Of a stretch of DNA of 41,223 bases, positions 119 to 36,557 are shown piece by piece. Within the stretch, counting starts at the first letter, position 1. The number at the start of each line of letters is the position of its first letter. The notes under the pieces were generated by a model. That model was not told the origin of the DNA. It was given only the letters and a program-made list of their open reading frames with translations, and did not search any database. Where the stretch lies: positions 1 through 41,223 of the forward strand of contig JAQVNC010000009.1 of NCBI GenBank assembly GCA_028703305.1, read 5' to 3'. Both the position numbers and the translations under genes were made by a program. The DNA is from Patescibacteria group bacterium. GTDB taxonomy: Bacteria > Patescibacteriota > Patescibacteriia > Patescibacteriales > GWC2-42-12.

Positions 119-330
119 CATATAACGCGCGCGGGATATGCGATGCGCCTGGAGGCCAGTACTCTGGCCGCAAGGCGTTTCGCATATCCCGAGTTGGGCG
201 ATGCCGCTCCGCCTTGCCCGTAGGGCGGGCGAGCGGCGAGTCCAACGAGGGCCTGCCCGCGCGCGTTGAGCAAAACCGCGAGCACCGAGCGTTAGCGAGG
301 GCGGAGCGGTTTTGCTCAACTAGTTATATG
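119..330. repeat. GC-rich nested inverted-repeat block (three-way-junction/cruciform-like)
   Basis: CATATAAC(119-126)/GTTATATG(323-330); AACGCGCGCGGG(124-135)/CCCGCGCGCGTT(256-267); GGGATATGCGA(133-143)/TCGCATATCCC(180-190) enclosing GGCCAG/CTGGCC; TTGAGCAAAACCGC(266-279)/GCGGTTTTGCTCAA(306-319). Confidence 0.85.
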
Positions 331-1262: not shown

Positions 1263-1290
1263 GGATTCCGGCTCGTAGACCGGAATGACA
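1263..1290. repeat. short palindromic repeat GGATTCCGGCT..GACCGGAATGACA
   Basis: Inverted repeat ATTCCGG/CCGGAAT; related copies at 1654, 3271, 32648. Confidence 0.8.
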
Positions 1291-1300
1291 ATTTAATATT

Positions 1301-4273: not shown

Positions 4274-5254
4274 ATGAAATACGACGTCATAACCATAGGC
4301 GGGGCGACCGAGGATATAACTTTTTACACCGACGAAGGAGTTTTAATTAACAACAAGAAAGATTTAACCAAGCAAAAATTACTGGCCTTTGAATACGGGG
4401 CAAAGGTCAAAGTTGATAAGTCATTTTCCGGTTTTGGCGGCGGGGCGGCCAACGCCGCGGTTAGCTTGTCCGGTTTTGGCTTTAAAGCGGCTTGCCTTTG
4501 CGCCATTGGCGAAGATTCCCGAGGCCAAAGGATTTTAAGCAATCTTCAGGCGCGAGGAGTAGATATAACCTTAGTGCAAAAAATAAAAGGCGTTGAAACC
4601 GGTTTTTCTTTTTTATTGGTCGGTCCGTCCAATGAACATATTGTTTTTTCCAACCGCGCGGCCAATAATGAGCTAACCGTTAATGATTTTGAAATTGGGA
4701 TTTTGGATCAAAGCGAATGGATATATTTAACGTCCTTATCCGGAGAATGGAAAAATAATTTGGAAAAGATTTTTTCGGTTAAAAATGAGAAGCTTGCCTG
4801 GAATCCTGGGCATAGGCAGATTTTAACCGGCATAAAAGGGCTGGGGAAATATTTTAAAAAAACAACCTGCTTGATCGTTAATAAAGACGAGGCCATAGAA
4901 TTGGTTATGTCGGATAAAAAATATAAAGCTAAAGGCCGCGCTTTTTTAAATAATGTAAAAAATTTGCTGGCGGCTTTAAGCTCGTATGGCCCTAAAATCG
5001 TTGTCATTACCGGCGGCCGGCAGGGCGCTGACGCCATGTTTGAAAATAAAATTTATCATCAGCCGATTATTAAAGAAACGCGCCGCGCCGATACTACCGG
5101 AGTCGGCGATGCTTTTGGCTCGGCCTTTATCGCCGGGCTGGAATTATATAATCAAGACATTAAAAAATCTTTGCTGTTAGCCGCGAAAAACGCCGCTTCG
5201 GTAATTAGCATACCCGGCGCGCAGAACGGGTTATTAAGTAAGAAGAATATATAA
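4274..5254 (+). CDS. PfkB-family (ribokinase-like) carbohydrate kinase
   Basis: FGGGAANAAVSLSGFG and DTTGVGDAFGSAFIAG motifs. Confidence 0.9.
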   Translation: MKYDVITIGGATEDITFYTDEGVLINNKKDLTKQKLLAFEYGAKVKVDKSFSGFGGGAANAAVSLSGFGFKAACLCAIGEDSRGQRILSNLQARGVDITLVQKIKGVETGFSFLLVGPSNEHIVFSNRAANNELTVNDFEIGILDQSEWIYLTSLSGEWKNNLEKIFSVKNEKLAWNPGHRQILTGIKGLGKYFKKTTCLIVNKDEAIELVMSDKKYKAKGRAFLNNVKNLLAALSSYGPKIVVITGGRQGADAMFENKIYHQPIIKETRRADTTGVGDAFGSAFIAGLELYNQDIKKSLLLAAKNAASVISIPGAQNGLLSKKNI

Positions 5255-5260
5255 TCTACT

Positions 5261-5360
5261 GTCATTGCGAGGAGTCCCGTGCTCTGGACGACGAAGCAAT
5301 CCCTGGTTAATTTCCGACTATGTGAGATTGCTTCGCTCCCTTCGGTCGCTCGCAATGACA
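5261..5360. repeat. GTCATTGCGAGGAG...CTCGCAATGACA repeat
   Basis: Terminal inverted repeat GTCATTGCGAG/CTCGCAATGAC with internal GAAGCAATC/GATTGCTTC. Confidence 0.85.
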
Positions 5361-18412: not shown

Positions 18413-18425
18413 TATACGACATTAA

Positions 18426-18524
18426 GATTGGGCTAAATTTATAAAATTTTCTACTGCGGAACTCGCTCGCTTGTGGCGAGTTCAAGCAGTCCTCGTACGA
18501 AAATTTTATAAATTTAGCCCAATC
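18426..18524 (+). repeat. ~99-nt structured element, copy 1
   Basis: GATTGGGCTAAATTTATAAAATTTT...AAAATTTTATAAATTTAGCCCAATC (25-bp perfect arms) with core CTACTGCGGAACTC...CAAGCAGTCCTCGTACG. Confidence 0.9.
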
Positions 18525-18556: not shown

Positions 18557-18598
18557 TTGCCTAAAAAAAGAGGCTGGGGTAGAATAAAAACAGCAATT

Positions 18599-18733
18599 GT
18601 CATTGCGAGGAGCCCGTACTCGGGTGACGCGGCAATCTCACAAACAACACATTTTCACTAAAATATTACCACCTGCCTGTTTATGTGATATTCGTGAGAT
18701 TGCTTCGCTCACTATGTTGCGCTCGCAATGACA
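18599..18733. repeat. GTCATTGCGAGG...CGCAATGACA repeat
   Basis: Same family as 5261-5360, longer interior. Confidence 0.8.
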
Positions 18734-18747
18734 GAAACAAGAGATAT

Positions 18748-26630: not shown

Positions 26631-26683
26631 CGGCTTTACAAAATCGGTTGTTTTGGTTAAAATTAGGGAATAAAAATTCTTTT

Positions 26684-26790
26684 GTCATTGCGAGGAGCGT
26701 CAGCGACGAAGCAATCTCAGGTATGGTAAGTTTAGCGAAATTTATAGTACGTGAGATTGCTTCGCCATGATTACATGGCTCGCAATGACA
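26684..26790. repeat. GTCATTGCGAGGAGC...CTCGCAATGACA repeat
   Basis: Same family as 5261-5360. Confidence 0.85.
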
Positions 26791-27491: not shown

Positions 27492-27499
27492 TTCATATT

Positions 27500-27600
27500 G
27501 TCATTGCGAGCGACTGTAAGGAGCGAAGCAATCTAACGGACAATTATTTTAACTAATAGTTCGTGAGATTGCTTCGTCGCTGGCGCTCCTCGCAATGACA
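27500..27600. repeat. GTCATTGCGAGC...CTCGCAATGACA repeat
   Basis: Same family as 5261-5360. Confidence 0.85.
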
Positions 27601-27642
27601 AATTTTTTTTTAATTTTAAATCAAGCATTAAAAATTTTATCA

Positions 27643-29259: not shown

Positions 29260-29285
29260 AATTTAAGTAAAATCACTACATTAAT

Positions 29286-29384
29286 GATTGGGCTGGATAT
29301 AATAAATTTTCTACTGCGGAACTCGGCCGCTTAAGACGGCCTCAAACAGTCCTCGCACGAAAATTTATCATATCCAGCCCAATC
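29286..29384 (+). repeat. ~99-nt structured element, copy 2
   Basis: GATTGGGCTGGATATAATAAATTTTCTACTGCGGAACTCGGCCG...CGGCCTCAAACAGTCCTCGCACGAAAATTTATCATATCCAGCCCAATC. Confidence 0.9.
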
Positions 29385-33762: not shown

Positions 33763-36429
33763 ATGAAAACAAAAAATTTTAAAAAATTATTATCAGTTAT
33801 CATGCTTTTTGGATTGCTTGGTTGGATTAGCCCGGTTTTAGCTATTGACGGCCCGCCGGCCGGCTTTGAAGGCATGACATCGGCTCCCAGCCCGGAGCAA
33901 ATCGCCGAGATACAAAAACAGGCTCAAGCGGCCGCTCAAGCCCAACAACAGCAACAAGCCAGCGGTTCGGTGCCGTCTGATATTCAGGCTCCAGCGGTAA
34001 ATAATATTATGAATAATCAGGCTCCGGCCATGCCTAATATTGATTTTAGCAAGTTCGGCCCGATGCCGCAGGCGGTTGAAGGCGCGCCCATGCCTAAGTT
34101 TATGGGTCAGGCTATAGCCGGCTCCGGCATGGATCAAATGGCCGGGCAAATCGGCAATGCTTTAGAGAGCATTAAAGAAGGCTTAACCAGCGCTGAGGAA
34201 GGAATTAAAGAAATGAAAGACGGGCAGATTAAAATTGATGCGGGTATGGAAAAAGGCGTAAAAGCCGCCAGGCCGATTTATGAAGCGGCCGTAGCGGCTT
34301 ATCAATCAGGCGATTATCAAGCGGCCGCCACCAAGCTTCAAGAGGTGGAAAAAGTCGGTTTTGATAGAAAATACGCCGCTTTTGCCGAAACGCAAGGCGT
34401 CTCGCTGGACATGATAAAAGATATTAAAGCGCAAATGAATGAAGGCTTAAAGCAAATTTCGGCGATTGATGAGCCGGATGAACAGCTAGCCGCGCAAGCC
34501 GACATTATGACGCAAATGAATTATTTGGATGACGCGGAAAAATTAATGAAACAAAATAAGAAAAAAGAAGCCGCGGCCATGTTAAAGAAAATGAAGCAGG
34601 CCGGCGGCGTGGGCACGGCCGACGCCAGCTTGGCATCGGGCAAAACTAATAAAATGGGCGCTTCACAAATCGGCAAAGCGCTGGATAAAATCAACACGGA
34701 TTTAACCAGGGCCGGCCAAGGCTTGGAAAAAGCCAAAGATAAAGGCATAGAAATTTCAAGCGAATTGCAGGACGCTATGGATAAAACCAAAGCACTGTAT
34801 GAACAGGCTAAAGGTTATTATGACGCCGGCGATTATATCAAAGCGGCTGAAGTTTTAAAACAGTTGAAAGATTCAAAATTAAAAGAATTATCATTGTCAT
34901 ATCGGGATAAGATGCTACCGGCCGACCGCTTAAAAAGTATTTTAGATGAAGCTAAAAGTGGCTCTAAAGCTCTAAAATTAAGCATTGAAAAAGCCAAAGA
35001 ATTCGGCGTTGATACAACCGATTTGGAAAAAATGTCCGCTGATTTGGATGCCTTGCTGGTTAAAGCCGAAGAGGCCATGAATGCCAAGGATACGGAATTA
35101 TTCTTAACCATTATGAGCCAGGCCGAAGAGCTAAACGTGCGCGAAAAAGTTAACGCCGCCATCAAAACCGTAGCCATGGGCCGAGCCAAGGAAATTTTAG
35201 GCGAAGGCCTAACCGCTGTTAAGGCCACGATTGAGAAGTTAAACGCGCTTATCGGGACGATTACCGACAAAGGCGGAGCCGTGGCTAACGCCAAAGATTT
35301 AATCAGCCAGGCCAGCGCTAATCAGGCTAAAGCGCAAGCGCTTTATAATTCCGGAGATTATATGAACGGCGGACGGGTGCTGGACGACGCGGCCATGGCT
35401 TTATTCAAGGTCGGCAATATTCTACGAGATTCCGCCGCCAAAGCTTCAAAGGAGCAGCTTAAAGCGATTGATGATTTGGTTAAAACTTTAAATAAAGGCC
35501 AAGATTTATCAAATGTTAATCCGAATAACATGACCCAAGCCGAGAGACTGTTGGGCAATTTGCAAGAAGGCAATATAATGGAAAATAAGCAAACCATTAT
35601 GCAATTTAATCCGGCTTTATTGGATAAAATTCTGGCCTACAGGCAAAAAGACCAAAAAATGATTGATAGTGTCATTAATGAAGTCATGCCTTTGGTGCCG
35701 GAACGCGACCGCCAAGCCATGATGGAAGACAAAATAAATTTATTGGAAGAATCAATCAGCGCCGATAAAACCATAAAAGTTATGCAAAAGCTGAAAGGCT
35801 TGAATAAAAATACGGTTACTGATTTGAAAAATATCGCCGCGCAGGTTAAAAATTATAATTTCACCACTAAAGTCGCCGACCAGCTTGATGGAAAAATTAC
35901 CGATCTAAATGATAAAATCCAGTCCGGCGAAATCAAAGACGCGAAACTGGTTGATAATTATGTTAAGGCCTTAAAAGATGAAGTAACTAAGGACGTCGCG
36001 GCTTCGCAGGCGGAAAAATACAAGCAAAAATTAATACCGGCAAAGAATGTTGACGATAATAATCCATTGTTCGCCGAGATTAAATATTTAAAAGACGACG
36101 GCGCGATTGCCACTGATAAAAACGGCAACATTAATACCGGGCAGGCTGTCAGCGGTAAAGTTCTGGCTGATATTGTTAATAAGACCCAGGACAAAAATGC
36201 TATGAAGGCCATTGCCGGCAGTAAAATAACCGTTAAGGCCGCGGCGCAAAAAATTATTGAATCATACGGCGTAAAAATGCAAGCTAATCCGGCAGATGCG
36301 GCTAAATTCGCTACCTATTTGAATAATTTGGGCGCGGATATCAAACAAGCGGATTTAAACAAGCCGGCTAATCTCGGACAAGTCGCTGAAATAGTCGCGG
36401 CCGCTGATCAGGAGTGGGGGAATAAATAA
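33763..36429 (+). CDS. secreted helical-repeat protein
   Basis: Signal peptide; repeated helical units of the type LYEQAKGYYDAGDYIKAAEVLKQL. Confidence 0.78.
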   Translation: MKTKNFKKLLSVIMLFGLLGWISPVLAIDGPPAGFEGMTSAPSPEQIAEIQKQAQAAAQAQQQQQASGSVPSDIQAPAVNNIMNNQAPAMPNIDFSKFGPMPQAVEGAPMPKFMGQAIAGSGMDQMAGQIGNALESIKEGLTSAEEGIKEMKDGQIKIDAGMEKGVKAARPIYEAAVAAYQSGDYQAAATKLQEVEKVGFDRKYAAFAETQGVSLDMIKDIKAQMNEGLKQISAIDEPDEQLAAQADIMTQMNYLDDAEKLMKQNKKKEAAAMLKKMKQAGGVGTADASLASGKTNKMGASQIGKALDKINTDLTRAGQGLEKAKDKGIEISSELQDAMDKTKALYEQAKGYYDAGDYIKAAEVLKQLKDSKLKELSLSYRDKMLPADRLKSILDEAKSGSKALKLSIEKAKEFGVDTTDLEKMSADLDALLVKAEEAMNAKDTELFLTIMSQAEELNVREKVNAAIKTVAMGRAKEILGEGLTAVKATIEKLNALIGTITDKGGAVANAKDLISQASANQAKAQALYNSGDYMNGGRVLDDAAMALFKVGNILRDSAAKASKEQLKAIDDLVKTLNKGQDLSNVNPNNMTQAERLLGNLQEGNIMENKQTIMQFNPALLDKILAYRQKDQKMIDSVINEVMPLVPERDRQAMMEDKINLLEESISADKTIKVMQKLKGLNKNTVTDLKNIAAQVKNYNFTTKVADQLDGKITDLNDKIQSGEIKDAKLVDNYVKALKDEVTKDVAASQAEKYKQKLIPAKNVDDNNPLFAEIKYLKDDGAIATDKNGNINTGQAVSGKVLADIVNKTQDKNAMKAIAGSKITVKAAAQKIIESYGVKMQANPADAAKFATYLNNLGADIKQADLNKPANLGQVAEIVAAADQEWGNK

Positions 36430-36457
36430 GTAAATAACGGCAACTAAATCACATGAC

Positions 36458-36557
36458 GATTGGGCTAAATTGATAAAATTTTCTACTGCGGAACTCGGCT
36501 AGCTTCGCTAGCCTCAAGCAGTCCTCGCACAAAAATTTTACCAAATTTAGCCCAATC
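36458..36557 (+). repeat. ~100-nt structured element, copy 3
   Basis: GATTGGGCTAAATTGATAAAATTTTCTACTGCGGAACTCGGCTAGCTTCGCTAGCCTCAAGCAGTCCTCGCACAAAAATTTTACCAAATTTAGCCCAATC, followed by TTTTTT. Confidence 0.9.

Follow-up and report, generated by a model that had tools for sequence, protein, structure and literature searches.

What is the structured sequence of about 99-100 nt that recurs three times within a single stretch of a Patescibacterial genome, each time directly behind a gene? The stretch, hereafter the window, is the whole 41,223 nt analysed and belongs to a 37-contig draft genome (G000), the genes of which were called with a simple caller of our own. The three copies, all on the + strand, begin 13, 26 and 28 nt past stop codons (Table 1); a first-pass annotation had placed them at these positions and on this strand, and re-reading of the window confirmed it throughout. 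The segment TTTTCTACTGCGGAACTC is unchanged in all three copies, and the apical stems have a different sequence in each copy with the pairing kept, both as previously described; the perfect pairing claimed for the terminal arms of copy 1 also holds, over one base pair more than the 25 originally counted. The gene upstream of copy 3 (an 888-aa ORF at window positions 33763-36429, 5' of the copy) has no Pfam match. A flank motif of the ACAKKA type lies within 14 nt 5' of the stem in 12 of 22 copies of the source genome and 3' of the stem in none, and the 5' flank motif of copy 1 was found again in a related genome (G007) in another gene context.

Table 1. Positions of the element copies, their parts and other repeats (window positions, if no other contig is given)
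Feature	Position	Strand	Remarks
Copy 1	18426..18524	+ (folding strand -)	between M23 peptidase gene and cysS
Copy 1, terminal arms	18426-18451 / 18499-18524		perfect pairing, 26 bp
Copy 1, 5' flank motif CGACATTA	18417..18424	+	subfamily consensus CKACATKA
Copy 1, conserved core, 5' half ACTGCGGAACTC	18453..18464	+	
Copy 1, variable apical hairpin P3	18465..18481	+	basis: compensatory changes
Copy 1, conserved core, 3' half TCAAGCAGTCCTCGTAC	18482..18498	+	
Copy 2	29286..29384	+	between dnaX and tRNA gene
Copy 2, 5' flank motif CTACATTA	29276..29283	+	
Copy 3	36458..36557	+	directly upstream of lexA promoter
Copy 3, 5' flank motif CACATGA	36450..36456	+	
Sister-subfamily copies	776709, 772895 (L422); 923856 (L424); 1052201 (L426); 1126893 (L427); 683077 (L421)		genome G424, contig C3
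Second repeat family	18583-18740, 26668-26770, 27499-27618, 5245-5360, 1264-1300		

The element is a member of a repeat family that extends far beyond the window. An 18-base invariant block is present 23 times in the source genome (925 kb) and its reversed control not once, so the repeat is not a product of chance; with the few diverged copies picked up by a covariance model, the total reaches 26 in the contigs of this genome that were read. A covariance search over Patescibacterial genomes, proposed in the first-pass annotation as a check, returned homologues at every rank: 10 of 13 genomes in the family and 19 of 111 in the order are carriers, as are 21 of 380 in the phylum when the model is restricted to the core. 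Cultured carriers include strains of Dechloromonas, Niveibacterium, Novimethylophilus and Barnesiella. Furthermore, the split pattern CTGCGGAACTCG-N(3-33)-CTCAAACAGTCCTCG, with 27 fixed bases, matches at least 116 GTDB genome stretches, including, among the matches listed, Proteobacteria, Lachnospiraceae, Coriobacteriia, Bacteroidota, Myxococcota, Omnitrophota and Nitrospirota; these matches share the core by construction, and about 1e-3 would be expected by chance, as estimated from the pattern length and the collection size. The same pattern was absent from viral contigs and from phages, and plasmids contained no complete match. Around the core, the stems differ by lineage, and single genomes hold several stem subfamilies. 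No Rfam family reached its gathering threshold, and permissive thresholds brought up nothing but weak alignments to long-stem miRNA models; literature searches returned just primers and other chance matches with the letters of the core, and no match with those of beta-type repeats. The repeat is apparently widespread and undescribed, and the earlier impression of an undescribed structured element holds against Rfam.

Several variants accompany the main family. A sister subfamily with the core CTGCGGGGCTCG...TCTCGAACA..TCCTCG is oriented like the main family (Table 1). Proteobacterial versions (Azonexaceae-type loci L085, L107, L108, L111 and L172) reach about 250-300 nt with additional hairpins, and in these loci the segment past CTTTCTTTTGC..GCAAAAGAAAG varies as the mirror image of the hairpin arm (AAAGAAAAGG), which suggests a three-strand or otherwise coordinated constraint. 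An additional hairpin type, CCTGCCTGCCGGTAGGCAGG, lies within the core between CTGCG and GAACTC at L272 and L274 (G007) and L294 (G002), in several copies.

Covariation in the stems exceeds that of all 500 of 500 shuffles and of every slid control, in agreement with the constrained fold with invariant loops recognised at first. It is strong in both orientations and therefore cannot alone name the folding strand. Three further comparisons distinguish the strands. With a common pairing model, 97.6% of cells pair on the reverse strand versus 92.6% on the sense strand, although the model was built on how a single copy folds on the reverse strand and so favours that strand somewhat. Folding energies, which are free of this model bias, also favour the reverse strand: with RNA parameters it has the lower energy in 131 of 149 copies from Patescibacteria and in 133 of 155 from elsewhere, and with DNA parameters in 135 of 149 and 138 of 155, respectively. 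The stem mismatches on the sense strand comprise 117 A·C versus 32 G·T, A·C on this strand corresponding to G·T or G·U on the reverse strand; the excess persists after removal of a hotspot at positions 10/11, one helical turn from the core (66 versus 28), and in other phyla (47 versus 20). Pairing, folding energy and mismatch type together identify the reverse strand as the folding strand, with P values that are optimistic, the copies being related.

On the reverse strand, the element consists of a 25-bp stem of free sequence (P1), a UGCG/CGCA helix, a bulged A, a GGACU/AGUUC helix, an asymmetric loop and a free apical hairpin. The core reads UGCG-A-GGACU-GUUUGA-[P3]-G-AGUUC-CGCA, with an invariant G·U pair in the core helix, and the core helices show no covariation of their own because they scarcely vary. 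The pairing of CTGCGG with CCTCGCA, previously regarded as an alternative conformation, does exist and belongs to this better, opposite-strand fold.

Around the copies, the genes are arranged in a preferred manner. In the source genome, 22 of 25 copies lie in sense between co-directional genes, mostly 15-40 nt past a stop codon; between co-directional genes of other Patescibacteria, 57 copies are sense and 8 antisense, none inside a gene. Every one of the approximately 100 Patescibacterial contexts checked is intergenic, and in other phyla many copies are antisense. The rule that all copies follow stop codons in sense, drawn from the window, is thus true there and fails genome-wide. Genes in the source genome mostly run with replication. 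With a skew proxy for replication direction (transcription-corrected GC skew at third codon positions), each of the 26 copies in the source genome follows replication, as do 48 of 52 over four genomes; three exceptions occur in G056. Three copies of the source genome beside opposing upstream genes (one on contig C3, two on C8) still run with replication. Of its co-directional gaps, 22.5% oppose replication, and the same share of the copies in such gaps should do so if orientation followed genes; 0 of 24 do (P=0.0022). Meanwhile, in the 627-1223 kb arm of a 1.24-Mb contig of G424, where the skew is strong, 10 core and 6 sister copies all lie in the leading-strand orientation (16/16), three of them between genes that both read the opposite way. 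At co-directional sites of all genomes where genes and replication are in conflict, replication prevails by 7:1 (P=0.035; few sites), these orientation P values likewise being optimistic for related copies. Raw GC skew of 8-kb loci is not associated with orientation in other phyla (41:35), partly because of inverted pairs. Placement relative to genes, the mapping of which had been suggested, is therefore non-random, apparently for a DNA-level reason, namely replication and not transcription, the two genomes tested best being G000 and G424. Since the reverse strand folds and orientation follows replication, the folding strand lies on the leading-strand template.

In several loci (L094, L096, L102, L135, L145, L164 and L196), oppositely oriented copies flank one or a few accessory genes, which by eye we take to be DUF3800-, DUF2971- or HEPN-like; elsewhere, the members of inverted pairs are just 200-330 bp apart. 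A gene-cassette arrangement was considered for the proteobacterial inverted pairs and abandoned, the genes in between being unrelated.

Comparison of orthologous sites reveals presence and absence of the element directly. At the copy-2 site, G006 has the dnaX TAA followed by TTT and the tRNA, and G008 keeps the dnaX-tRNA order with a spacer of about 40 nt, the element being absent from both. The lexA promoter at the copy-3 site is conserved in G002, G003 and G007, likewise with the element absent; at the copy-1 site, G002 has no copy, and G007 carries one approximately 100 nt farther along, again accompanied by the 5' flank motif of copy 1. No target duplication is visible at the empty sites compared, and because these relatives are about 75-80% identical, neither an exact insertion boundary nor a target duplication is definable. 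Across many bacterial phyla, the repeat has moved from one intergenic gap to another, and these empty sites bear out the mobile-element candidate (MITE- or REP-like) of the first-pass annotation. MITEs are similar as short, non-coding interspersed repeats present or absent at orthologous sites, but the terminal (P1) arms of the element vary freely from one copy to the next, and its sites showed no target duplication.

With about an even chance, in our judgement, the element is a non-autonomous, strand-specific mobile hairpin of about 100 nt, the reverse strand of which is functional and which is moved in trans. The functional form would be the single reverse strand folded as a long hairpin; a strand-specific enzyme, presumably acting in trans, would recognise the conserved centre and insert new copies into intergenic gaps. 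The copies that are retained would have their folding strand on the leading-strand template and off the exposed lagging-strand template, a placement that would limit folding at the fork. Their direction might be set when they insert, or else by selection against a hairpin forming on the lagging-strand template. We infer from the strand and orientation evidence that the folded molecule is DNA. More tentatively, and with some doubt, the repeat may represent a new class of strand-specific folded mobile element, with a near-identical core in many phyla, an enzyme unrelated to the Y1 and integron systems, and its direction fixed by replication.

Two systems of folded single-stranded DNA offer partial parallels to such a mobile hairpin. 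The bottom strands of integron attC sites are kept on the leading-strand template (PMC11023631), and attC sites resemble the element in being long imperfect hairpins, the bottom strand of which folds and lies on that template. However, the element is conserved in its centre and not in outer boxes, the attC boxes RYYYAAC ... GTTRRRY being found at the foot in 0 of 23 copies on either strand, and its copies are dispersed over the genome and form no cassette array. The ends of IS200/IS605 elements share hairpin recognition in ssDNA, a replication-linked strand bias and a motif at the hairpin foot; unlike them, the element is about 100 nt long, has no ORF, and comes without a transposase gene or second end. 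Moreover, the folding strand is on the leading-strand template in the element and on the lagging-strand template in IS200/IS605.

Alternatively, the reverse strand might be transcribed and the folded molecule might be RNA (a mobile structured RNA, a ribozyme or a protein-binding RNA) that has spread as a repeat. We regard this as rather unlikely. In its favour, 5.9% of the pairs on the reverse strand (54/920) are G·U, near the 8.3% of the tRNAs of the same genome, the core helix contains its invariant G·U, and covarying, free stems around invariant loops resemble RNA motifs of the Rfam type. The argument that few G-U pairs imply DNA was rejected for this reason, being true for the sense strand only. 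Several observations speak against a reverse-strand RNA. At most copies, such a transcript would run antisense to the adjacent genes; the sequence 5' of the reverse strand lacks conservation and shows no common promoter; orientation tracks replication; and no Rfam family matches. Strand and orientation evidence favour a DNA-level element.

A further reading is an RNA element of the sense strand, in a 3' UTR or between cistrons, with a role in stability, processing or termination; the first-pass annotation had named a 3'-UTR RNA motif first among its candidates, followed by a structured terminator or processing element. The 22 of 25 sense placements noted above accord with this reading. The sense strand, however, folds worse and carries A·C mismatches in place of G·U, the opposite of what selection on a sense RNA predicts; the copies beside opposing genes follow replication, and many copies in other phyla are antisense. 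A sense-strand RNA or terminator is thus quite improbable. The accompanying claim that covariation implies selection on an RNA or ssDNA fold was too strong, because template switching between palindrome arms yields the same covariation pattern without selection on RNA (PMC8794818).

Even less probable is a new lineage of REP sequences moved by a Y1 (TnpA_REP-type) transposase. REP/BIME/REPIN sequences with TnpA_REP (RAYT) also form many intergenic palindromic copies with a strand-specific hairpin, a mismatched stem and a patchy distribution, and the element, like them, is a multi-copy, intergenic, imperfect palindrome with an ssDNA-type hairpin and a one-sided foot motif. REPs are defined to include a GT[AG]G foot tetranucleotide (PMC6006769, PMC8266576), which was found in 1 of 22 copies of the source genome on the top strand and in none on the bottom strand; moreover, REPs measure 20-65 nt versus about 100 nt here, and the element has no Y1 gene by its copies and a single core common to phyla. 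The element thus resembles REP or attC sequences in principle and falls under neither definition. Some Y1 protein is encoded in 16 of 19 carriers (order-wide model search) versus 38 of about 90 other genomes, an association confounded by kinship; however, five carriers gave no Y1 hit at all, namely G424 (a complete genome with many copies), G002, G005, G370 and G421, and no copy or core lies near any Y1 gene read. A Y1 transposase was therefore rejected as the mobiliser. The sole Y1 (RAYT-like) gene of the source genome (L237, contig C15, 1-700) sits with a different palindrome, GCGGTCGGACCGC, which surrounds and interrupts the gene and is probably its own REP. No ORF family recurs beside the copies, and no mobilising gene was found. 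A transposase hidden in the apical loop was also considered; the two distant core pairs concerned proved to be degenerate chance matches with no gene between them.

Least probable of all are inert quasi-palindromes without present function, their arms kept matched by template switching. In their favour are the documented mechanism (PMC8794818) and compensatory changes among which G·U intermediates are almost absent from the sense strand; against them stand the replication-linked orientation and an asymmetric core near-unchanged across phyla, which template switching would tend to symmetrise.

A 27-base non-coding core kept across phyla, with no known partner enzyme, points to an unrecognised system acting on DNA or RNA. 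The element can serve as a model in which to test the constraints that replication direction and hairpin folding place on repeats, and it warns that stems between bacterial genes may covary strongly in the absence of a sense RNA. In addition, the small-genome Patescibacteria gain a marked repeat family, one that can be followed from strain to strain. Other repeats occur in the window as well. A second interspersed family with inverted arms, GTCATTGCGAGGAG.../...GCAATCTC, is scattered over the window (Table 1) and the relatives, and window positions 132-191 hold a palindrome of 28 nt (CGGGATATGCGATGCGCC..., loop of 4 nt) that has no relation to the element.
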